NCBI RefSeq assembly: GCF_028621715.1
Contig: NZ_CP117466.1
Span: 563,001-627,000 of the forward strand
Length of the DNA stretch: 64,000 nt
Direction of reading: 5' to 3'
Source of the DNA: Paracoccus marcusii
GTDB taxonomy: Bacteria > Pseudomonadota > Alphaproteobacteria > Rhodobacterales > Rhodobacteraceae
The notes beneath the pieces were generated by a model that was not told where the DNA came from, ran no database searches, and saw nothing but the letters and a program-made list of their open reading frames with translations. This document shows, piece by piece, positions 20,903-31,791 of the stretch. A program made the translations under genes and the position numbers. The stretch's first letter is position 1; the number at the start of each line of letters is the position of its first letter.

Positions 20903-20963
20903 GATTTCTCCTTTGCCCAAATACCCCGGGGGGAGTCCACAGGACGGGGGGCAGCGCCCCCCT
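20903..20963 (+). repeat. Interspersed GC-hairpin repeat, copy B
   Basis: Immediately after the oxidoreductase stop comes ATTTCTCCTTTGCCCAAATA followed by CCCCGGGGGG and an inverted repeat GGGGGGC (20946-20952) with GCCCCCC (20956-20962). The CTTTG-NNN-AAATACCCC part matches copy A in the same orientation relative to the upstream gene. The 60 bases beyond it, up to the next start, hold nothing else I can name. Confidence 0.72.
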
Positions 20964-21023
20964 GCCCGCTTGCCACCCGCGCGCGCCCCGCGCACACTCC
21001 CCCCGAACCAGCCGGAGCCCGCG

Positions 21024-22292
21024 ATGACCCGCCTCGACCATGCCTTCACCGCCATTGATGCCGCCAATGCCCAGGACCCGAACCTGGACGACGGCAAGCC
21101 TGCGAACCTCCTCTATGGCCAGCGCATGACGGCGGAACAGCAGCGCCTGTTCCCAGACGCCGACGACGTTCTGCGCATCGCCTGCCGCGGCCAGCATGTC
21201 GAACGCTGGCTGCTGCCGCGGGCCGACTATCCGATGAACCGCCCCGGCTATCTGGCCTGGCGCCAGGAACAGGGCCGCCGTCACGCGGATCGCATCGCCG
21301 GCATCATGGCCGATGCGGGCTATGACGCCGATGACATCGACCGCGCCCGCAAGATGCTGACCAAACAGGGCCTCAAGCGCGACCCCCAGGTGCAGGCGCT
21401 GGAGGACGTGATCTGCTTCACCTTCATCCGCTGGTATCTGGGCGATTTCATGGCCGAACAGCCCGACCACAAGATCCCCCGCATCATCGAGAAGACCGCC
21501 CGCAAGATGTCGGCCGAGGCCCGCGCCCGCGCCCTGGCCGAATTCCCCATGCCCGAGGCGTTGGCCCAGTATTTCCATGACGCCGATCAGCCGCAGACCC
21601 TGTCGCGCGCCGTCATCGTCTCGCATGGCCAGCCCGGCGACCCCGCACCCCAGCAGGCCGCCATCGAGGCGCTGGCCGCCCAGGTCGCGGCCCACGCCCC
21701 CGGCGTCGAGGTCCTGGGCGCGACGCTCGCCGACCCCGACGCCCTGCCCCGCACCTGCCGCAGCGACTGCATCATCTATCCGATGTTCATGGCCGAGGGC
21801 TGGTTCACCGGCGTCGAACTGCCCCGCCGCCTGACCCAGGCCGGCGCACCGGGCGCGCATATCATGCGCCCCTTCGGCACCGATCCCGGCCTCGACGCGC
21901 TGGTCGTCGAAAAGGCGCGCCAGGCGGCGGACGCCCAGGGCTGGGCGCTGTCAGATACGACCCTGCTCCTCTCCGCGCATGGATCGCAGCGTGGGCAGGC
22001 TAGCCACGACATCACCATGGCACTGGCCGCCCGCATCGCGCCGCATTTCGCCCGCGTCGTCGCGGGCTTCGTCGAACAGGAGCCCTTCATCGCCGACGCC
22101 GCCCGCGGCTTGGATCGTGCCATCAGCCTGCCGATGTTCGCGCTGCGCGCGGAGCATGTGCTGGACGACCTGCCGCAGGCGCTGGATCAGGCGGGCTTCA
22201 CCGGCCCGCGTCTGGACCCGGTGGGCCTCGCGCCCGAAGTGCCCGCGATGATCGCAGCCTCCATCGCCAGAGAAGTTTCAAGCTTGAAATGA
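21024..22292 (+). CDS. DUF4202 - CbiX-like chelatase fusion protein
   Basis: This 422-residue protein joins two recognisable parts. Residues 1-185 carry the DUF4202 pattern: IDAANAQDPN, LLYGQRMTAEQ, ACRGQHVERWLLPRADYP, GYLAWRQEQGRRHA, LTKQGLKRDPQVQALEDVI and IIEKTARKMS. Residues about 195-422 resemble a long sirohydrochlorin chelatase/CbiX with two half-repeats, AVIVSHGQPGD (His201) and LLLSAHGSQRG (His319), the positions of metal-binding histidines in that family. DUF4202 has no established function; CbiX-type enzymes insert cobalt, nickel or iron into sirohydrochlorin. The fusion suggests a link to sirohaem or cobalamin. CGGAG precedes ATG 21024. The gene's last codons overlap a 14-bp palindrome. 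Confidence 0.82.
   Translation: MTRLDHAFTAIDAANAQDPNLDDGKPANLLYGQRMTAEQQRLFPDADDVLRIACRGQHVERWLLPRADYPMNRPGYLAWRQEQGRRHADRIAGIMADAGYDADDIDRARKMLTKQGLKRDPQVQALEDVICFTFIRWYLGDFMAEQPDHKIPRIIEKTARKMSAEARARALAEFPMPEALAQYFHDADQPQTLSRAVIVSHGQPGDPAPQQAAIEALAAQVAAHAPGVEVLGATLADPDALPRTCRSDCIIYPMFMAEGWFTGVELPRRLTQAGAPGAHIMRPFGTDPGLDALVVEKARQAADAQGWALSDTTLLLSAHGSQRGQASHDITMALAARIAPHFARVVAGFVEQEPFIADAARGLDRAISLPMFALRAEHVLDDLPQALDQAGFTGPRLDPVGLAPEVPAMIAASIAREVSSLK
22276..22289. promoter_or_regulatory. Perfect 14-bp palindrome, probable MarR operator
   Basis: TTTCAAGCTTGAAA is a perfect palindrome that lies in the last codons of the DUF4202-CbiX gene and ends 45 bases before the first gene of the aminobenzoyl-CoA operon. 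Its size and TTTCAAG half-sites fit operators of CoA-thioester-responsive MarR repressors such as HcaR. The third gene of the operon encodes a MarR protein, which is the obvious candidate to bind here. The assignment is inferred from position and symmetry. Confidence 0.62.
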
Positions 22293-22299
22293 TTTCGGA

Positions 22300-22334
22300 C
22301 CCGTGCCAGCCTGCAGCGCAGGAGGTGGCACGGG
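22300..22334 (+). promoter_or_regulatory. Hairpin enclosing the ribosome-binding site of the operon's first gene
   Basis: Arms CCCGTGCCA (22300-22308) and TGGCACGGG (22326-22334) form a perfect 9-bp stem that ends exactly at the ATG. The loop holds a second stem, CCTGC/GCAGG (22310-22314 and 22318-22322), and the strong Shine-Dalgarno AGGAGG at 22320-22325. Part of the Shine-Dalgarno is therefore paired and the rest lies between stems. The arrangement would reduce initiation when folded; no sensor is identified. Confidence 0.6.
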
Positions 22335-24614
22335 ATGAAGATTCTCTGTCTGGGTGGCGGGCCTGCGGGCCTTTACTTCGCGATCTCGATGAAGCTGCGC
22401 GATCCGTCGCATGACGTGACCGTGCTGGAGCGCAACGGCGCAGGCGACACCTTCGGATGGGGCGTGGTGCTCTCCGACGACGCCCTGTCGCGGCTGGAAC
22501 GCAACGACCCGCCCTCGGCCCAGGCGATCCGCGACCATTTCATCTATTGGGACGACATCGCCGTCATCCGCGACGGCCACCGGCAGGTCTCGGGCGGGCA
22601 TGGTTTCGCGGGGATCGGGCGGCGGCAGCTGCTGATCCTGCTGCAGGAGCGGGCCCGGGAGCTGGGCGTCACCCTGCAATTCCAGACCGAGTTCCAGACC
22701 GCCGAAACCTATCGCCACGACTATGACCTGGTCGTCGCCTGCGACGGGCTGAACAGCAAGGTCCGCACGGAATATGCGGACGTGTTCCGCCCCGACATCG
22801 ACATGCGCCGCTGCAAGTTCGTCTGGCTGGGCACGAAACAGAAATTCGACGACGCCTTCACCTTCATCTTCGAAAAGAGGCCGCAGGGCTGGCTATGGGC
22901 GCATGTCTATTCCTTCGACGCCGACACCGCGACCTTCATCGTGGAATGTTCGCAGGAGACCTGGGACGCGATGGGCTTCGAGGGCATGACGAAAGAGCAG
23001 ATCGTCGAGACCTGCCGCGACGTCTTCAAGGACCATCTGGGCGGGCATGACCTGATGTCGAACGCGGCGCATTTGCGCGGCTCGGCCGTCTGGATGAACT
23101 TTCCCCGCGTCATCTGCGACCGCTGGTATCATGAGAATGTGGTGCTGATGGGCGATGCGGCGGCGACGGGGCATTTCTCGATCGGGTCCGGCACGCGGCT
23201 GGCCTTGGACAGCGCCATCGCGCTGGCCGATTACCTGCATTCCGAACCCGACCTGCCCCGCGCCTTCGAACGCTATCAGGAGGAGCGGCGCGTCGAGGTT
23301 CTGCGCCTGCAATCGGCCGCCCGAAACAGCCTGGAATGGTTCGAGGAGGTCGAGCGTTACCTGGACCTGGACCCGATCCAGTTCACCTATTCCCTGCTGA
23401 CCCGCAGCCAGCGCATCGGCCATGAGAACCTGCGCCTGCGCGACCCGGGTTGGGTGCGCGAGGCCGAGGACTGGTTCCAACGGCAGGCCGGCGGCCAGCC
23501 GGGCCGCGCGCCGATCTTCGCGCCCTTCCGCCTGCGCGACATGGCGCTGAAGAACCGCATCGTCGTCTCGCCCATGGCGCAGTACAAGGCGCAGGACGGC
23601 TGCCCGACCGACTGGCACCTGGTCCATTACGGCGAACGCGCCAAGGGCGGCGCGGGCCTGGTCTTTACCGAGATGACCTGTGTCAGCCCCGAAGGCCGCA
23701 TCACGCCGGGCTGTCCGGGCCTCTACGCGCCCGAGCATCAGGCGGCCTGGCGGCGGATCACCGATTTCATCCATGCCGAGACGGATGCCAGGATCTGCTG
23801 CCAGATCGGCCATTCGGGCCGCAAGGGCTCCACCCGCATCGGGTGGGAGGGGATGGACCAGCCGCTGGCGGAGGGCAACTGGCCGATCATGGCGGCCTCC
23901 GCCCTGCCGTGGTCCGACGACAATGCCGTGCCGCAGGAGATGACCCGCGCTGATATGGAGGCAGTGACCGAACAGTTCGTGGCCGCGACCCGCATGGCGG
24001 ATGCCGCGGGCTTCGACATGATCGAGCTGCATGCGGCGCATGGCTATCTGCTGTCGGGCTTCCTGTCGCCGGTGTCGAACCGGCGCACGGATGATTATGG
24101 CGGCAGCCTGGAGAACCGCCTGCGCTGGCCGTTGGAGGTGTTCACCGCCATGCGCGCCGTCTGGCCCCAAGACAGGCCGATGTCGGTGCGCATCTCGGCC
24201 ACGGACTGGACCGAGGACGGCGTGACGCCTGACGAATCGGTCGCCATCGCGCAGGCCTTCCATGCGGCGGGGGCGGATATCATCGACGTGTCGGCCGGGC
24301 AGACGACGCCCGAGGCGCGGCCGGTCTATGGGCGGATGTTCCAGACGCCGTTCTCGGACCGCATCCGCAACCAGGCGGGGCTGGCCACGATGGCGGTGGG
24401 CAACATCACCGATGCAGATCAGGCCAACGGCATCCTGCTGGCCGGGCGCGCCGATCTGGTGGCCATCGGGCGACCGCATCTGGCCGATCCCTATTGGACG
24501 CTGCATGCGGCGACGGCGCTTGGCGACGGGGCGGACTGGCCCCTGCCCTATCACGCGGGCCGCGATCAGGCGCGGCGACTGGCCGCCAAGCAGGCCGAGG
24601 AGATCCGCGCATGA
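22335..24614 (+). CDS. abmA: 2-aminobenzoyl-CoA monooxygenase/reductase (flavin monooxygenase-OYE fusion)
   Basis: The 759-residue protein fuses two flavoenzymes. Residues 1-390 are an FAD aromatic hydroxylase: [13 protein letters not shown] at the N-terminus, [11 protein letters not shown] and [19 protein letters not shown]. Residues about 395-759 are an old-yellow-enzyme domain with [42 protein letters not shown] and [10 protein letters not shown]. This is the architecture of the Azoarcus evansii enzyme that monooxygenates and then reduces 2-aminobenzoyl-CoA to a non-aromatic 2-amino-5-oxocyclohexene-carboxyl-CoA. Salicylyl-CoA 5-hydroxylase is the close alternative name. A CoA ligase and tryptophan dioxygenase in the same operon favour the aminobenzoyl role. 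The stop overlaps the SDR start (ATGA). Confidence 0.88.
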
Positions 24615-25336
24615 CCCGCGTCCTGATCACCGGCGGCGGCAGCGGCACCGGCGCCGACATGGCCCGGGCCTTTGCCGCCCAAGGTCATGAGGTCGTCATC
24701 ACCGGCCGCGACACCGCGAAACTGGAGGCCGTGGCGGGCGGGTTGATCCGCGCCGTGCCGGGCGATGTCAGCGACGAGGATCAGGTGCGGCGCATCTTCG
24801 ATGCGGCCGGCCCCTGCCAGGTGGTCATCGCCAATGCCGGCATCGCCGAGGCCGCGCCCTTTGCTCGCACCACTCTGGACCAGTTCAGCCGCATCATGGC
24901 GGTCAACCTGACGGGGGTCTTCCTGACCTTTCGGCAGGCGCTGTCGCAGATGGGACCGGGGGGGCGGTTGATTGCGGTATCCTCGGCGGCGGGGCTGCGG
25001 GGGGCGGCCTATGCCTCGGCCTATGCGGCCAGCAAGCATGGGGTGATGGGGCTGGTGCGGTCGATCGCGCTGGAGGTGGCTGCCAAACAGATCACCGCCA
25101 ACGCCATCTGCCCCAGCTATCTGGACACCGAGATGACCGGCCGCACGCTGGACGGGATCATGGCCAAGACGGGGCGCGACCGCGACGCGGCACTGGCTGC
25201 GCTGACCGCCCGCAACCCGCAGGGCCGCCTGATCGCGCCCGCCGAGGTGACCGGCGCGGCGCTGTGGTTGGCCTCGGACGCGGCGGCGGGGGTGAACGGC
25301 CAGGCCATCGTCCTGGACGGAGGCGAGAGCGCATGA
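24611..25336 (+). CDS. SDR-family oxidoreductase (probable 3-hydroxyacyl-CoA dehydrogenase step)
   Basis: This 241-residue classical short-chain dehydrogenase has the cofactor loop [17 protein letters not shown] at the N-terminus, [10 protein letters not shown] near residue 75, a catalytic Ser in IAVSSAAG, and Tyr/Lys in [11 protein letters not shown] near residue 142. The arginine in GRD after strand 2 suggests NADP(H) or mixed use. Overlap with the preceding and following genes (ATGA at both ends) places it firmly in the operon. There it could oxidise a hydroxyl of the ring-derived acyl-CoA or reduce the 5-oxo group; the substrate is inferred only from context. Confidence 0.85.
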
Positions 25337-25767
25337 CCGACCTGTCCAAGCGGCGGCTGAAGACCTGGATCCGCCTTCTGGGCGTGACGCGGGGGGCCGA
25401 GAACCATCTGCGCGACTATCTGCGCCGCGCGCATGGCACGACCCTGCCCCGCTTCGACGTGATGGCGGCGCTGTGGCGCAGGCGCGAGGGCGTGACCATG
25501 TCCGAGTTGTCGCGCCTGCTGCTGGTGTCGAACGGCAATGCCACGGCGGTCGTCGACCGACTGGAGGCCGACGGCATGGTCCGCCGCGAGGCCGAGAACG
25601 GCGACCGACGCCGCATTCGCGTGCGCCTGACGCCCGAAGGCCTGGAGGCGTTCGAGATCATGGCCCTGGGCCATGAGGCCGAGGTCGACGCGATCCTGGG
25701 CCGATTGTCCGAAACCGATCTGGAGGCGCTGCGCGACATCCTGTCCCGCGCCGGGAGGCCCGAATGA
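25333..25767 (+). CDS. MarR-family transcriptional regulator of the operon
   Basis: This 144-residue winged-helix protein contains [20 protein letters not shown], the recognition region [20 protein letters not shown] and the wing [18 protein letters not shown], all standard for MarR. Family members embedded in aromatic-CoA operons usually repress them and release DNA on binding the CoA thioester. The perfect palindrome at 22276-22289 upstream of the operon's first gene is its likely target. It is coupled by ATGA overlaps on both sides, an arrangement that would give feedback because the repressor is made from its own operon. Confidence 0.9.
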
Positions 25768-26576
25768 AACCCGTCCCCATGGCCGATCTGGCGCCCGAAC
25801 ATTTCCTGTGGGAGGTCACGGACCGCATCGCGGTGATCCGCCTGAACCGCCCCGAGCGCAAGAACCCCCTGACGTTCGACAGCTATGCCGAACTGGGCGC
25901 CTGCTTTCGGCAGCTGGCCCATGCGTCGGACGTGGATGTGGTGGTGCTGGCCTCCAATGGCGGCAATTTCTGTTCGGGCGGCGACGTGCACGAGATCATC
26001 GGCCCGCTGGTCGGCATGGAGATGCCGCAGCTTCTGGCCTTCACCCGCATGACCGGGGAGCTGGTGCGCGCGATGATCCATTGCGGCAAGCCGGTGATCG
26101 CCGCGGTCGAGGGGATCTGCGTGGGCGCGGGCGCGATCATGGCCATGGCCAGCGACCTGCGACTGGCCGCGCCCTCGGCCAAGGCTGCGTTCCTGTTCAC
26201 CAAGGTGGGGCTGGCGGGTTGCGACATGGGCGCCTGCGCGATGCTGCCGCGGATCGTGGGTCAGGGGCGGGCGGCGGAGCTGCTGTATACGGGCCGCGTG
26301 CTGCGCGCCGAGGAGGGCGAGCGGTGGGGGTTCTGGAACAGCCTGCATGACGACGTCTTTGCCGCGGCGATGGATCTGGCGCGAAGCATCGCGGCGGGGC
26401 CTGTCTGGGCGCATGGCATCACCAAGACGCAGCTGTTGCAGGAATGGACCATGGGGTTGGATCAGGCGATCGAGGCCGAGGCGCAGGCCCAGGCCATCTG
26501 CATGACCACGCGCGATTTCGAGCGGGCCTATCGGGCCTTCGTCGCCAAACAGACGCCGGTCTTCGAGGGCAATTGA
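25764..26576 (+). CDS. Enoyl-CoA hydratase/isomerase family protein
   Basis: This 270-residue crotonase-fold enzyme has [19 protein letters not shown] sequence ([17 protein letters not shown] near residue 23), the oxyanion-hole region [14 protein letters not shown] near residue 70, and [20 protein letters not shown] near residue 110, which would hold the second backbone NH. Typical catalytic glutamates are not obvious at the usual place ([17 protein letters not shown]), so hydratase, isomerase or ring-hydrolase activity cannot be distinguished. In the operon it should act on the dearomatised cyclohexene-carboxyl-CoA. A repeat element separates it from the next gene by 50 bases. Confidence 0.88.
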
Positions 26577-26626
26577 GGGAACCGGGGCTCTGCCCCGGAC
26601 CCCGGGATATTTGGGTGAAGAAGAAG
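26577..26626 (-). repeat. Interspersed GC-hairpin repeat, copy C, supplying a ribosome-binding site
   Basis: The hairpin arms are CCGGGGC (26582-26588) and GCCCCGG (26592-26598). They are followed by ACCCCGGGATATTTGGG and then GAAGAAGAAG directly before ATG 26627. This is copy A read from the other strand. The purine-rich end is the only Shine-Dalgarno-like sequence for the acyl-CoA dehydrogenase gene, so the repeat has apparently been inserted in, and recruited by, the operon. Confidence 0.75.
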
Positions 26627-27757
26627 ATGGATCGCAGCTTTCTGGACTGGCCGTTCTTCGAGGACAGGCATCGCGTGCTGGCCCAGGGGCTGGAGGATTG
26701 GGCCGCAGGCGCGCTGCCGGTGGATCACGGCGATGTGGACGGGGCCTGCCGGGGGCTGGTGCGGGCGCTTGGCGATGGCGGCTGGCTGGCGCATTCGGGG
26801 GGCGAGGCGCTGGACGTGCGCGCGCTGTGCCTGATCCGCGAGACCTTGGCGCGCCATGACGGGTTGGCGGATTTCGCCTTTGCCATGCAGGGCCTGGGCA
26901 TGGGGGCGGTGACGCTGTTCGGCAGCCCGGTTCAGCGAGAATGGCTGGAGCGGACGCGGGCGGGCCGGGCGATTTCGGGGTTCGCGCTGACCGAGCCTGC
27001 GTCCGGGTCGGACGTCGCGCGGCTGGCGACCACGGCGCGCCGGGATGGCGACGGGTGGGTTCTGGACGGGGAAAAGACCTATATCTCCAACGGCGGGATC
27101 GCGGATGTCTATGTGATCGTCGCGCGGACCGGGGAGGCCCCGGGCGCGCGGGGGCTGTCGGCCTTTCTGCTGCCTGTGGAGACACCGGGGCTGGAGGTGG
27201 TCAGCCGCATCGACGTGATGGCCCCGCATCCGCTGGCGCATCTGCGCCTGACGGGGGTGCGGCTGCCGGGGGATGCGCTGATCGGGCAGTCGGGACAGGG
27301 GTTCCGCATCGCCATGACGGTGCTGGATCATTTCCGCCCCACGGTGGGGGCCGCGGCGTTGGGCTTCGCGCGTCGGGCGCTGGACGAGGCTTTGGCCCGC
27401 GTGCGCTCGCGCCAGATCCAGGGCGCGCCGATGGCCGAGCTGCAGATGGTCCAGGGGCATCTGGCCGATATGGCGCTGAAGATCGACGCCGCCGCCCTGC
27501 TGATCTATCGCGCGGCCTGGGCCAAGGACCAGGGCGCGCCCCGCATCACGCGGGAGGCGGCAATGGCCAAGCTGTACGCCACCGAGATCGCGCAGGAGGT
27601 CATCGACCAGGCCGTGCAGCTGCATGGCGGCGACGGCGTGCGGACGGGCAGCACGGTCGAGAGCCTGTACCGTGAGATCCGCGCCCTGCGCATCTACGAG
27701 GGGGCCAGCGACGTGCAGCGCGTCGTCATCGCCCGCAGCATCCTGGAGGGCGCATGA
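26627..27757 (+). CDS. Acyl-CoA dehydrogenase
   Basis: This 376-residue flavoprotein of the acyl-CoA dehydrogenase family has [20 protein letters not shown] near residue 121 (FAD-binding signature), [20 protein letters not shown], and the C-terminal signature [20 protein letters not shown] near residue 330 with [12 protein letters not shown]. The catalytic base is probably the glutamate in YEGASD. It would desaturate the cyclohexane-carboxyl-CoA intermediate and pass electrons to ETF. The frame extends back into the hydratase gene, but [11 protein letters not shown] after the repeat is the sensible start. It overlaps the thioesterase gene by ATGA. Confidence 0.92.
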
Positions 27758-28143
27758 CCTATACCCGTACCATTCCCATCGAGTTCTGCCACTGCGACCC
27801 GGCCGGAATCGTCTTCTATCCCCGCTATGCGGAGATGGTGAACCACATGGTGGAGAACTTCTTTCTGGAGGTCGTGGGGCATGGCTTTGGCCCGATGATG
27901 GCGGCGGGCCAGGGGATGCCCACCGTCGCGCTGGAAATGGCGTTCCGCAAGCCCGCGCAGCTTGGCGACCGGCTGGACTGGACGCTGGTGGTCGAGCATC
28001 TCGGCCGGTCCAGCGCGCGTTTCCTGGTGCGCGGCGAGGACCGGGTCGAGGCGCGGACCACGGTGGTCTGGATGGACCGCGATTTCACCCCCTCGCCCTG
28101 GCCCGACGCCATGCGACAGACCCTGGAGGCGCATCATGCATGA
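27754..28143 (+). CDS. 4-hydroxybenzoyl-CoA thioesterase-family protein
   Basis: This 129-residue hot-dog-fold thioesterase has the hallmark [20 protein letters not shown] near residue 11, where the Asp in [10 protein letters not shown] is the catalytic residue of the 4-hydroxybenzoyl-CoA thioesterase group. [18 protein letters not shown] and VVWMDRD follow. In this operon it could release stalled aromatic-CoA esters and so recycle CoA, rather than lie on the main route; that is inference. It starts within the acyl-CoA dehydrogenase stop (ATGA) and overlaps ridA by eight bases. Confidence 0.9.
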
Positions 28144-28531
28144 ACCCCTGCATCCGGCGACGTGGAAGCGCGCCTCGGGCTATTCAAACGGTGTGATGGC
28201 GCGGGGGCGGATGATCTTTACCGGCGGGCTGGTGGGCTGGGACGCCGATCAGGTCTTTCAGACCGACGATTTCGCGGGGCAGGTCCGGCAGGTGCTGGAA
28301 AACATCGTGGCGGTCCTGGCGGAAGGCGGCGCGGGGCCCGAGCATCTGGTGCGGCTGACCTGGTACGTCACCGACAAGCACGAATACCTGGGCGCGCTGC
28401 GCGAGGTCGGGGCGGCCTATCGCGACGTGATCGGGCGGCATTATCCGGCCATGGCGCTGGTGCAGGTCGTGGCGCTGGTCGAGGACCGCGCCAAGGTCGA
28501 GATCGAGGCCACGGCCGTGGTGCCGGAATAG
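28136..28531 (+). CDS. RidA-family enamine/imine deaminase
   Basis: This 131-residue protein of the YjgF/YER057c/UK114 family has an early YSNGVMARGRMIFTGGLVGW strand pair, QVRQVLENIVAVLAEGGAG, LVRLTWYVTDKHEY near residue 72, and YPAMALVQVVALVEDRAKVEIEA. RidA proteins hydrolyse reactive enamines and imines to ketones and ammonia. Canonical RidA has an arginine near residue 105 that binds the carboxylate; here that segment reads HYPAMALVQVVAL and lacks it, so it belongs to a RidA subgroup with different substrates. The product of the operon's first enzyme is an enamine, which gives it a plausible target. Confidence 0.88.
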   Translation: MHEPLHPATWKRASGYSNGVMARGRMIFTGGLVGWDADQVFQTDDFAGQVRQVLENIVAVLAEGGAGPEHLVRLTWYVTDKHEYLGALREVGAAYRDVIGRHYPAMALVQVVALVEDRAKVEIEATAVVPE

Positions 28532-28535
28532 GGGG

Positions 28536-30155
28536 ATGATCATGCTGGGACCAAGCGGGCACGAGGACAGCTTCACGCGCGACAACCTGCCCCCGCAGGA
28601 GGCCTGGCCGCGGATCGACCTGTCCGGATACGACTATCCCGACTGGCTGAACGCAGGTGCGGAACTGACCGACCGCATGGTCGATCGCGGCTTCGGGGAC
28701 AGGGTCGCGCTGGTCGGCAACGGGCGGGCGCGGACCTACAAGGAGCTGTCGGACTGGACCAACCGGCTGGCCCATGCGCTGGTCGCGGATTACGGGCTGC
28801 GGCCGGGCAACCGGGTGCTGATCCGGTCGGCCAACAACCCCGCGATGGTCGCCTGCTGGCTGGCCGCGACCAAGGCGGGGGCGGTGGTCGTGAACACCAT
28901 GCCCATGCTGCGCGCCAAGGAGCTGTCCCAGATCATCAACAAGGCACAGGTGACGCATGCGCTGTGCGACACGCGGCTGATGGATGAGCTGGTGGCGGCG
29001 GCCAAGGGCTCGGCCACGCTGACCACGGTGGTGGGGTTCGACGGCACCGCGAACCATGATGCGGAGCTGGACCGGGCGGCGCTGACCAAGCCCGTGCGGT
29101 TCGAGGCGGTGCGGACCGGGCGGGATGACGTGGCTCTGCTGGGGATGACCTCGGGGTCGACGGGCGAACCCAAGGCCACGATGCATTTCCACCGCGACCT
29201 GCTGATCATCGCCGACGGCTATGCGCGCGAGGTTCTGGGGGTAACGCCGGACGATGTCTTCGTGGGGTCGCCGCCGCTGGCATTTACGTTTGGTCTGGGC
29301 GGGCTGGCGGTGTTCCCGCTGCGTTTCGGGGCCAGTGCGGTGCTGCTGGAGAACGCCTCGCCCCCGAACATGATCGAGATCATCGAACGCCACCGCGCAA
29401 CGATCTGCGTGACCGCGCCCACGGCGTACCGGGTGATGCTGCGCGCGATGGATCATGGGGCGGACCTGTCCAGCCTGCGCGTGGCGATCAGCGCCGGAGA
29501 GACCCTGCCCGCGCCCATCTGGCAGGATTGGCACGACCGCACGGGCAAGCCGATGCTGGACGGGATCGGCGCGACCGAGATGCTGCACATCTTCCTGACC
29601 AACCGGCTGGACGACAGCCATCCGGGCTGCACCGGGCGGCCCGTCCAAGGCTATCGCGCGCGGATCGTGGACGATGCGGGCCAGGAGGTGCCGCGCGGAG
29701 AGATGGGGCGGCTGGCGGTGATCGGGCCGACCGGCTGCCGCTATCTGAACGATGCGCGGCAGGCAGAGTATGTGCAGGGCGGCTGGAACCTGACCGGCGA
29801 CACCTTCTGGCAGGATGAAGACGGGCGGTTCCATTTCGCGGCGCGCTGCGACGACATCATCGTGTCGTCGGGCTACAACATCGCCGGGCCGGATGTGGAG
29901 GCGGCGCTGCTGGCGCACGCGGACGTGCTGGAATGCGCGGTGATCGGGGTGCCGGACCCGGAGCGCGGCCAGATCGTCGAGGCGCATGTGGTGCTGGCCC
30001 CCGGCGTCGCGCCCGACACCGCGACCGCGGAGCGGTTGCAGCGGCATGTGAAGGACGTGATCGCGCCCTTCAAATATCCCCGCCGGGTGGTCTTCTGCGC
30101 GGCCCTGCCCAAGACCCAGACCGGCAAGATCCAGAGGTTCAGGCTGAAGCAATGA
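28536..30155 (+). CDS. abmG: 2-aminobenzoate-CoA ligase (benzoate-CoA ligase family)
   Basis: This 539-residue adenylate-forming ligase would activate anthranilate to 2-aminobenzoyl-CoA with ATP. Marks are [19 protein letters not shown] near residue 202 (P-loop), [13 protein letters not shown], the acid-pocket phrase [15 protein letters not shown], the hinge region [20 protein letters not shown], and the catalytic lysine in [14 protein letters not shown] at the end. The sequence follows the benzoate/2-aminobenzoate-CoA ligase branch rather than fatty-acid ligases. Substrate choice rests on its neighbours, the aminobenzoyl-CoA oxygenase and tryptophan dioxygenase. ATG 28542 is an alternative start. 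It overlaps kynA by ATGA. Confidence 0.87.
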
Positions 30156-30973
30156 GTATCGACCCTGCACAGGAAGGCGCGCGCATGTCGTTCGACGGGC
30201 GCATGTCCTATGGCGATTATCTGGGGCTGGACCGGCTGCTGACATCGCAGCACCCGCTGTCGGATGCGCATGACGAAATGCTGTTCATCATCCAGCACCA
30301 GACGTCCGAATTGTGGATGAAGCTGGCCTTGCTGGAGATGGGGGCGGCGCGGGAACGGATTGCCGCGGGCGATCTGCGGCCCGCCTTCAAGATGCTGACC
30401 CGCGTGGCGCGGATCATGGAGCAGCTAAATTCGGCCTGGGACGTGCTGCGCACCATGACGCCGTCGGAATATTCGACCTTTCGCCCCGCGCTGGCCGAAA
30501 GCAGCGGGTTTCAGTCGCATCAGTACCGGATGATCGAGTTCGTCGCGGGCAACCGCAACATGGCGATGATCGCGCCCCATGCGCATCGTCCCGACCTGGC
30601 CGAGGCGCTGCGGGCGGAGGCCGCGCGGCCGTCGCTTTATGACGAAGTTCTGGGGCGGCTGAGGGCGGCGGGGTTCGACGTGGCGGCGCGCACCGTGCTG
30701 GACGCGCCCCATGCGCCGGACGCGGCGGCGCGGGCGGCCTGGGCCGAGGTCTATCGCGATCCGGGCCGCTATTGGGAGCTGTATGAGCTGGCCGAGAAGC
30801 TGGTGGATTTCGAGGATTACTTCCGCCGCTGGCGGTTCAACCATGTGACGACGGTGGAGCGGATCATCGGCTTCAAGCGCGGATCCGGGGGCACGTCGGG
30901 GGTGAATTATCTGCGGCGGATGCTGGACGTGGTGCTGTTCCCCGACCTGTGGGAGCTGCGGACCGAACTGTGA
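30152..30973 (+). CDS. kynA: Tryptophan 2,3-dioxygenase
   Basis: This haem enzyme opens the indole ring of L-tryptophan to N-formylkynurenine, the first step of the kynurenine route to anthranilate. The 273-residue protein carries [36 protein letters not shown] near residue 45 with the substrate-contacting His, [15 protein letters not shown], and [20 protein letters not shown] near residue 232, whose His is the proximal haem ligand. It is the last gene of the operon, coupled to the ligase by ATGA, which ties tryptophan breakdown to anthranilate activation. Formamidase and kynureninase must come from elsewhere in the genome. Confidence 0.96.
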
Positions 30974-30996
30974 GCGGGGCGGACGGCCTCGCCTGA

Positions 30997-31056
30997 CCGG
31001 CCCTGACGGGCCGGGGTCGCGGCCGTCGGTGGCGCCCGGACCTGCGGTCCGGGCGC
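30997..31056. terminator. Two GC hairpins between convergent genes
   Basis: The first stem is CCGGCCC/GGGCCGG with a TGAC loop (30997-31014). The second is a perfect 11-bp stem, GCGCCCGGACC (31032-31042) with GGTCCGGGCGC (31046-31056). Neither is followed by a T run on either strand. They occupy most of the gap between kynA and the convergent acetyltransferase gene and may slow or stop transcription from both sides. Confidence 0.5.
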
Positions 31057-31071
31057 GGTCGGTCCGGTGGC

Positions 31072-31791
31072 TCAGGCGGCGGGGCCGTAATAGGCGTAGC
31101 TGCCGGCGGCGGTGAAGCCGAGGCTGGCATAAGTGGCATGGGCTGCGGTATTCGCGCGGCTGACGGCCAGGCCGATGCGTGTGGCACCGAGATCCTGGGC
31201 CCAAGCGGCGGCTTGGCGCATCATCCAGCCGGCGAGACCCTGGCGGCGGAAGGCAGGCAGGACTTCGACGGCGTGGACCATGGCGGTGCGGTCATGCAAC
31301 GCGACGAAGCCTGCGCCTGCGGCGCGGTCCCGGATGCGGCCCAAAAGTGCGGCCTTGGGCAGGGGCACGCGGTCGATCACGGCCTGTCTTGCGGGAGTGA
31401 TGTTGCCCGCGCCCCAGATCTGGCGCTGGATCGCCAAGGGGGGCCAGATGGCAAAGGCGGTCACGGGCGGGATTGGCCGGTGGGTCAGCGCGGCGATGGG
31501 TGCGGCCATGACCTGGGTCGGGATATGCGCGCCCAAGCCCCGCGCGGTCAGGGCGGCGATCAGGTCAGTCTCATCGTCCCACGCACGGAACAGCGGCGGC
31601 TGGCCCCATGCGGCGTGCTGCGCACAGGCGGCGTCGATGTCGGCATCGCCCCACGGACCGACCGCGATGGCCGAGCTGACGCGCCCGCCCGCCCCTGCGC
31701 CCCGCCCGACCAGGAAGCCGCCGCAGCGGACGGTGTCAAACGCGGGCCACGTCGCCTCGAAGGCGGCGGCCAGATCGGGGTCGGGCCTCAC
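31072..31791 (-). CDS. GNAT-family N-acetyltransferase
   Basis: This 239-residue protein has a C-terminal GNAT acetyl-CoA-binding core: VHAVEVLPAFRRQGLAGWMM near residue 168 with the RRQGLAG pyrophosphate loop, then RIGLAVSRANTAAHATYASL and a final GFTAAGSYAYYG. The first 130 residues are less conserved. It probably acetylates an amine of a small molecule or protein; no substrate is suggested. The start is GTG, overlapping the stop of the upstream CinA-like gene (GTGA, 31788-31791), so the two are coupled. Confidence 0.85.
   Translation of the reverse strand: MRPDPDLAAAFEATWPAFDTVRCGGFLVGRGAGAGGRVSSAIAVGPWGDADIDAACAQHAAWGQPPLFRAWDDETDLIAALTARGLGAHIPTQVMAAPIAALTHRPIPPVTAFAIWPPLAIQRQIWGAGNITPARQAVIDRVPLPKAALLGRIRDRAAGAGFVALHDRTAMVHAVEVLPAFRRQGLAGWMMRQAAAWAQDLGATRIGLAVSRANTAAHATYASLGFTAAGSYAYYGPAA

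Follow-up and report, generated by a model that had tools for sequence, protein, structure and literature searches.

A predicted tryptophan-dedicated version of the aerobic 2-aminobenzoyl-CoA pathway in Paracoccus marcusii and a candidate animal-type kynurenine formamidase encoded beside its kynureninase

The stretch of Paracoccus marcusii DNA analysed here, referred to as the window, is 64,000 nucleotides long (contig NZ_CP117466.1, positions 563,001 to 627,000 of the forward strand) and carries between positions 22335 and 30973 nine genes, all on the plus strand and each with a single stop in its reading frame (Table 1). The first encodes a fusion of a flavin monooxygenase (FMO) and an old yellow enzyme (OYE)-type reductase, and the last a tryptophan 2,3-dioxygenase (TDO). 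Together with a kynureninase gene (kynU) and an adjoining alpha/beta-hydrolase gene elsewhere in the same genome, they are proposed to constitute a variant of the aerobic 2-aminobenzoyl-CoA (abm) pathway that is dedicated to tryptophan, a reading to which the sequence comparisons described below lead us to assign a probability of about 0.87. Six of the eight junctions between the nine genes are overlaps, five of them 4-nt overlaps of the ATGA type and one of 8 nt; the other two are gaps of 4 nt and of 50 nt, the latter between the hydratase and dehydrogenase genes. The run of overlapping same-strand genes described in the original prediction, which was made from the letters of this stretch, is thus confirmed. 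An ATGA overlap joins the ligase and TDO genes, and the next gene downstream, an acetyltransferase gene (31072-31791), lies on the opposite strand, so that TDO is indeed the last gene of the operon, as had been claimed. Upstream, a single same-strand frame with DUF4202 and CbiX domains (20913-22292) ends 42 nt before the fusion gene.

Table 1. Predicted genes of the P. marcusii operon and the putative operator in front of it, in window coordinates.
Feature	Position	Strand	Details
Palindrome TTTCAAGCTTGAAA, proposed MarR operator	22276-22289		exact, perfect palindrome
FMO-OYE fusion, predicted 2-aminobenzoyl-CoA (or salicylyl-CoA) monooxygenase/reductase	22335-24614	+	759 aa; NF006101, PF01494, PF00724
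Short-chain dehydrogenase/reductase (SDR)	24611-25336	+	241 aa; PF13561, PF00106
MarR-family regulator	25333-25767	+	144 aa; PF12802, PF01047
Enoyl-CoA hydratase family protein	25764-26576	+	270 aa; NF006107, 461.2 bits, cut-off 330
Acyl-CoA dehydrogenase	26627-27757	+	376 aa; PF00441, PF02770
4HBT-type acyl-CoA thioesterase	27754-28143	+	129 aa; PF03061, PF13279
Rid-family protein, without the classical RidA arginine	28136-28531	+	131 aa; TIGR00004, 58.8 bits, below cut-off 106.25
Aryl-CoA ligase, probably 2-aminobenzoate-CoA ligase	28536-30155	+	539 aa; TIGR02262, 4WV3
Tryptophan 2,3-dioxygenase (TDO, kynA)	30152-30973	+	273 aa; TIGR03036, PF03301, 2NOX

Gene neighbourhoods were compared in the best 80 of at least 590 candidate loci retrieved with the fusion protein; 64 of these extend at least 9 kb downstream of the fusion gene and 16 less than that. 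The genes for the fusion, SDR, MarR protein, hydratase, dehydrogenase and ligase occur together in 55 of the 64 longer loci, which argues that the gene set of the operon is not a product of chance. All nine genes, with TDO last, were found in four Paracoccus loci (L007-L010). TDO is present in 20 of the 80 loci (19 of the 64 longer ones), in at least three gene orders that are spread across groups: after the ligase gene, between the Rid and ligase genes, and as a divergent pair with a hydrolase gene. It stands at the end, after the ligase gene, in Paracoccus onchidii, P. maritimus, P. homiensis, P. alkanivorans, Paracoccus S-4012 and a Rhizobium metagenome-assembled genome, in the last of which a hydrolase gene comes after it. 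It lies between the Rid and ligase genes in L022 and L025 (in L065 it follows the Rid gene and the ligase falls outside the stretch), between the ligase gene and kynU in L038, L043, L047, L053, L063, L064 and L068, and between the ligase and thioesterase genes in L011-L013, and it is divergent in L060. A kynU gene directly after TDO, at 56-61% identity, was counted in seven loci; four further loci of the 11 for which kynU was listed were left out, their matches of 27-29% identity possibly being other proteins of the same fold. For both TDO and the fusion, the trees place the protein of the window with those of the four Paracoccus species (support 100/99 for TDO, 95/89 for the fusion) and set L022, L025 and L065 apart as a group of their own. 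In P. onchidii (L007, 17863-19035) the ligase and TDO genes are separated by a 390-residue open frame that by eye resembles an outer-membrane porin-type protein; not all close relatives thus keep these two genes coupled. Since TDO or kynU near the cluster recurs in the family, the operon is less unusual than first rated.

The fusion protein scored 1281.9 bits against NF006101 (cut-off 1078; model positions 1-761 of 768), and PF01494 and PF00724 identify its halves as the flavin monooxygenase and OYE-type reductase found fused in the Azoarcus-type pathway. Genes of the beta-oxidation type, for the SDR, enoyl-CoA hydratase, acyl-CoA dehydrogenase and thioesterase, are likewise in the cluster. 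The best solved match of the ligase is the anthranilate-CoA ligase 4WV3. An aligned stretch reads TFGLGG in the window ligase, TFGTGG in 4WV3 and AYGLGN in benzoate ligases; the longer form AFTFGLGG is the same in 58 of 58 relatives and presumably lines the aryl pocket. The enzyme is therefore probably a 2-aminobenzoate-CoA ligase, and gene content and nearest solved relative both support the match to the Azoarcus-type pathway that had originally been proposed. One could instead suppose that the cluster degrades salicylate (via salicylyl-CoA) or another ortho-substituted benzoate, with TDO as a passenger: NF006101, which the fusion exceeds by 204 bits, is titled 'bifunctional salicylyl-CoA 5-hydroxylase/oxidoreductase', and the ligase narrowly exceeds the cut-off of TIGR02262, a generic model for benzoate-CoA ligases (375.7 bits, cut-off 375.25). 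We consider this very improbable, as the ligase is nearer to 4WV3 (293.5 bits) than to benzoate-CoA ligases (268.3 and 254.3 bits) and TDO co-occurs and clusters with the fusion in different orders.

The seventh gene had been called RidA. Membership of the Rid family holds, but the window protein has an alanine where two solved aligned chains carry the arginine of the VARL stretch, and the corresponding position is A, G, D or E in 61 of 61 relatives. This arginine is catalytic in RidA; in its absence a deaminase label for the protein is not warranted as yet.

TDO matches the solved dioxygenase 2NOX at 365.8 bits over residues 8-273 of 273 and lies above the cut-off of PF03301; no match to it was found in phage records. 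Its distribution was surveyed in 296 genomes of the family, one per genus (two of the window's own genus); going by the named relatives, the family is Rhodobacteraceae in the wide sense. TDO was found in 133 genomes, 80 of them over the curated TIGR03036 cut-off, after three of 136 matches had been excluded (weak matches in G118 and G236, and a 67-residue fragment in G276). The fusion was found in 107 genomes (103 over cut-off). Both occur in 97 genomes, the fusion only in 10, TDO only in 36 and neither in 153 (p=2e-35), so that TDO is present in 97 of 107 fusion-bearing genomes as against 36 of 189 fusion-free ones. Within genomes, TDO lies within 10 kb of the fusion in 31 of the 97, and within 3 kb of kynU in 102 of the 131 that carry both of these genes. 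The link from tryptophan to anthranilate, originally drawn from a single operon, is borne out by this co-occurrence and by the clustering in relatives. If TDO mainly fed NAD synthesis via 3-hydroxyanthranilate, or kynurenine export, and the operon just co-regulated it, the location of kynU apart from the operon, in a region without the palindrome, would be readily explained; the high share of fusion-bearing genomes that carry TDO, and the seven loci in which kynU stands after TDO and before the thioesterase or Rid gene of the cluster, leave this explanation with hardly any credence.

Between TDO and the ligase, two enzymatic steps are to be accounted for. The original prediction noted that formamidase and kynureninase are missing from the window and named the absence of kynureninase from the genome as grounds for giving the idea up. 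The genome, a single contig (C1) of 3,175,811 bases, has one kynU over cut-off (C1:1181952-1183070; 297.3 bits vs 246.4), about 0.59 Mb from the operon. For the formamidase, the genome holds a candidate from a non-classical family. KynB, the zinc-dependent bacterial kynurenine formamidase (PMC4243253; its fold is the subject of PMC5341072), covers this step between TDO and kynureninase and was rejected: its model PF04199 gave no match in this genome at E 1e-3 and was over cut-off in 7 of 14 control genomes, and TIGR03035 was over cut-off in none of the 296 genomes, with one weak match at the E 1e-20 limit, in a survey that has no positive control, as none of the 14 control genomes passed that cut-off either.

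The gene adjoining kynU is divergent from it, about 58 bp away if the two proteins start with MLYQ and MMTD, and encodes an alpha/beta-hydrolase that matches NF058665 'hormone-sensitive lipase' at 373.6 bits (cut-off 320); it is the only gene of this type found in the genome. In a fold ranking of solved relatives, kynurenine formamidase comes next after 2PBL and 9N8R and well above the other listed esterases, and the hydrolase is nearer in fold to the Drosophila kynurenine formamidase (PDB 4E11/4E14/4E15; 22-24% identity) than to most esterases, including the chains that carry esterase or hormone-sensitive lipase in their titles. The fixed letters of the motifs HGGxW and GHSxG are invariant in 17 of 17 hydrolase sequences, and 4E11 aligns with them as hggyw and ghsag. 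On these grounds an animal-type kynurenine formamidase is the most fitting reading of the protein, the bacterial activity being a prediction from sequence.

The distribution of the hydrolase is consistent with such a role. It was found in 243 of the 296 genomes at E <1e-80, and kynU in 248 (245 over cut-off). In twelve genomes the hydrolase matches were weak (E 1e-38 to 1e-67), and these genomes were scored as hydrolase-free. Both genes occur in 230 genomes, kynU only in 18, the hydrolase only in 13 and neither in 35 (p=1e-21); among genomes without TDO the corresponding counts are 103, 14, 12 and 34. For TDO and the hydrolase they are both in 128, TDO only in 5 (four of these five belong to the weak-match set), the hydrolase only in 115 and neither in 48. 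In 31 of 230 genomes the hydrolase gene has TDO, kynU or the fusion gene no more than 10 kb away, where 2.4 genomes would be expected; with a limit of 3 kb the observed and expected numbers are 26 and 0.7, the expectation assuming uniform placement in 3.9-Mb genomes. Coordinates were used for 230 of the 243 hydrolase genomes and 227 of the 248 kynU genomes; none of the 128 genomes that carry TDO together with the hydrolase, or of the 131 that carry it together with kynU, is missing from these. In addition, nine of the 80 relative loci contain hydrolase homologs of 44-53% identity, each beside TDO, the fusion or the ligase: after TDO in L056, before it in L060, divergent from the fusion in L020, L040, L047 and L050, and after the ligase in L021, L022 and L072. 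The 103 genera that carry kynU and the hydrolase without TDO are a separate observation, for most of which indoleamine dioxygenase is no explanation; that enzyme, considered as a source of formylkynurenine in TDO-less genomes, was present in just 2 of 296 at E 1e-10 and was dropped.

Most names given to the hydrolase family point elsewhere. HaHSL, the namesake, is called a lipase and has been characterised as an esterase, and a word search of the paper text (PMC6921082) returned neither 'kynurenine' nor 'formamidase'; 2PBL, of the same family, was deposited as a putative thioesterase; 9N8R, which outranks kynurenine formamidase among the solved relatives, is titled Lipase 1; and close members bear the source names acetyl esterase/lipase (two) and arylformamidase (one). 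EstDZ2 has been placed on a branch with the animal kynurenine formamidases (PMC5171882), and no title in the open-licence literature searched gives formamidase activity to the bacterial hydrolase family. The route could accordingly be right and the hydrolase still be a general esterase, N-formylkynurenine being cleaved by another enzyme or spontaneously, which would fit its presence without TDO in 115 genomes and the fact that only 31 of 230 genomes have it in the 10-kb neighbourhood of any of the three pathway genes. We regard this as unlikely, though it deserves to be taken seriously, in view of the excess of clustering over expectation at both distances, the co-occurrence with kynU, the lack of any KynB over cut-off in the survey, and the fold ranking. 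It is likely, in our judgement, that the bacterial family surveyed, lacking KynB, cleaves N-formylkynurenine with an animal-type serine hydrolase, that the NF058665/2PBL type is that formamidase, and that in some members of the bacterial family it is wired together with TDO into a MarR-controlled unit leading from tryptophan to 2-aminobenzoyl-CoA.

The palindrome TTTCAAGCTTGAAA overlaps with the final codons of the preceding gene, and 45 nt lie between its end and the first ATG of the fusion gene. Its exact sequence occurs once in the genome, the only other near copy (2 mismatches) being at C1:1734403. When 250 bp upstream of the fusion gene were scanned in the 80 relative loci, the best match lay 58-130 nt from the gene and agreed in 14, 13, 12, 11 and 10 of 14 letters in 26, 34, 13, 6 and 1 loci, respectively, that is in at least 12 letters in 73 of 80; among 2214 random 250-bp windows from the same loci, 12 letters were matched in 3 and 11 letters in a further 11. 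P. denitrificans has an exact copy beside a 12-of-14 copy, and Ruegeria pomeroyi has a 12-of-14 match within its divergent gap. A MarR gene is present in 71 of the 80 loci, which, with the conserved palindrome, makes a local operator the simplest explanation; TTTCAAGCTTGAAA is likely the operator of the operon's own MarR protein. Inclusion of kynU in the regulon was rejected: its region has no match of 12 or more letters, and kynU is therefore probably not under this operator. MarR regulators of aromatic-CoA pathways respond to CoA-thioesters, and by analogy the inducer may be a CoA-thioester of the pathway.

Scans of 22000-31300 for promoter-like sites (sigma-70 consensus only) and terminator-like sites found none on the plus strand; each gave one match on the minus strand, not above shuffled sequences. 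With the ATGA overlap to the ligase and no plus-strand sigma-70 site, separate transcription of TDO has no support in the sequence, and a single transcript is predicted. A longer unit, starting at or before the DUF4202-CbiX gene and with the palindrome inside it, would agree with the 42-nt gap and the lack of a plus-strand terminator-like site; it appears improbable, the fusion gene being preceded by the palindrome in 73 of 80 relatives, even where the next gene upstream is divergent. At the other end, a strong palindrome, GCGCCCGGACCTGCGGTCCGGGCGC (31032-31056), lies between TDO and the convergent acetyltransferase gene; it has no T run and was not picked up by the terminator scan, and is possibly the transcript end. 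No Rfam family reached its gathering score in 21900-31300. A stem-loop at 22300-22334 covers the likely Shine-Dalgarno sequence and extends to the fusion gene's start codon (z -2.0; 6 of 200 shuffles fold equally); compared with four Paracoccus relatives, 5 of its 12 predicted pairs have at least one pairing-preserving two-sided change, and one or two sequences disrupt several of the pairs.

Several results weigh against the proposed tryptophan-dedicated pathway. TDO itself, at 387.5 bits, is about 3 bits under the TIGR03036 cut-off of 390.7, which 53 of the 133 TDO genomes also miss, and ten fusion-bearing genomes have no TDO. TDO is not always near the cluster: 60 of the 80 loci show none within the stretch covered, and none lies near it in P. 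denitrificans. The salicylyl-CoA title of the fusion's NCBIfam model and the kynU region (L005) lacking the palindrome count in the same direction, as does 5OE3, a second anthranilate-CoA ligase in the PDB (a 407-residue construct), which scores 143.2 bits against the ligase. The likeness to the A. evansii abm clusters is one of gene content and family models rather than protein comparison. Finally, the survey p-values are overstated, because related genera are not independent samples; for that reason clustering in different gene orders is the stronger evidence.

We propose the following route, each reaction of which is predicted. TDO would open the indole ring of tryptophan to give N-formylkynurenine, from which the animal-type alpha/beta-hydrolase encoded beside kynureninase would remove the formyl group; kynureninase would then yield anthranilate and alanine. 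The ligase of the operon would convert anthranilate to 2-aminobenzoyl-CoA, the FMO-OYE fusion would hydroxylate and reduce the ring, and the SDR, hydratase, dehydrogenase, thioesterase and Rid protein would carry the resulting alicyclic enamine to central metabolism. Repression of the operon is expected to be exerted by its MarR protein from TTTCAAGCTTGAAA and lifted when a CoA-thioester of the pathway releases this protein.

Tryptophan degradation via kynurenine and 2-aminobenzoyl-CoA was reportedly described for Phaeobacter inhibens DSM 17395 by Drueppel et al. in 2014, where the genes of the route are said to be scattered, whereas here the dioxygenase and the CoA route share one operon; the parts of citing papers covered confirm just that the P. 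inhibens work included tryptophan among its nine amino acids. The pathway from tryptophan to 2-aminobenzoyl-CoA is thus probably already known. The 2-aminobenzoyl-CoA route and its enzymes were established in Azoarcus evansii (review PMC4539516), whose abm clusters (Schuehle et al. 2001) share gene content with the operon; the portion of that review covered mentions no tryptophan dioxygenase, whereas the operon here ends in one. Cupriavidus metallidurans has both abm and kyn genes, yet does not grow on anthranilate, according to the part of PMC8879955 covered. The megaplasmid of R. pomeroyi DSS-3 (SPO_RS21860-SPO_RS21905) likewise carries fusion, SDR, MarR, hydratase, dehydrogenase, ligase and Rid genes adjoining TDO and an alpha/beta-hydrolase; it differs in the divergent arrangement of TDO and the hydrolase (SPO_RS21900), in an inserted cupin gene and in having no annotated thioesterase within the stretch. 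Xanthine-dehydrogenase-type genes are also found near the TDO-hydrolase pair there (L089, 3036-6654).

Some further features of the clusters were noted. The sole long gap of the operon (26577-26626) consists of a GC-rich stretch plus GGACCCCGGGATATTTGGGTGAAGAAGAAG, which we take to resemble a dispersed repeat of the group; its core has one copy in the window at up to 2 mismatches. On plasmid 1 of P. denitrificans (L090, 19011-23570) a branched-chain-type ABC transporter, a candidate aromatic-acid importer, directly follows the ligase gene, and by eye ABC transporter-like frames recur in about 10 of the 80 loci. Large plasmids (records H1-H28) from genera that include Paracoccus, Ruegeria, Leisingera and Phyllobacterium carry close copies of the fusion gene, at 63-78% identity, which suggests that the module may move between replicons.

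As far as our searches of the open-licence literature reach, the single TDO-ending operon, its operator, the lack of KynB over cut-off across the sampled genera and the assignment of the hydrolase are new. With the operon, two known modules, the kynurenine pathway and CoA-dependent ring dearomatisation, would come under joint regulation in a bacterial family that is widespread, and a single conserved operator offers a testable site. We rate the missing-enzyme prediction as worth more than the operon itself; it names a concrete candidate for a step that has no recognised enzyme in the family; R. pomeroyi DSS-3, in which TDO, the hydrolase and the CoA route are neighbours, is suited to checking most of these claims. 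If the prediction is true, a family catalogued as lipases and the putative-thioesterase structure 2PBL would be reassigned.

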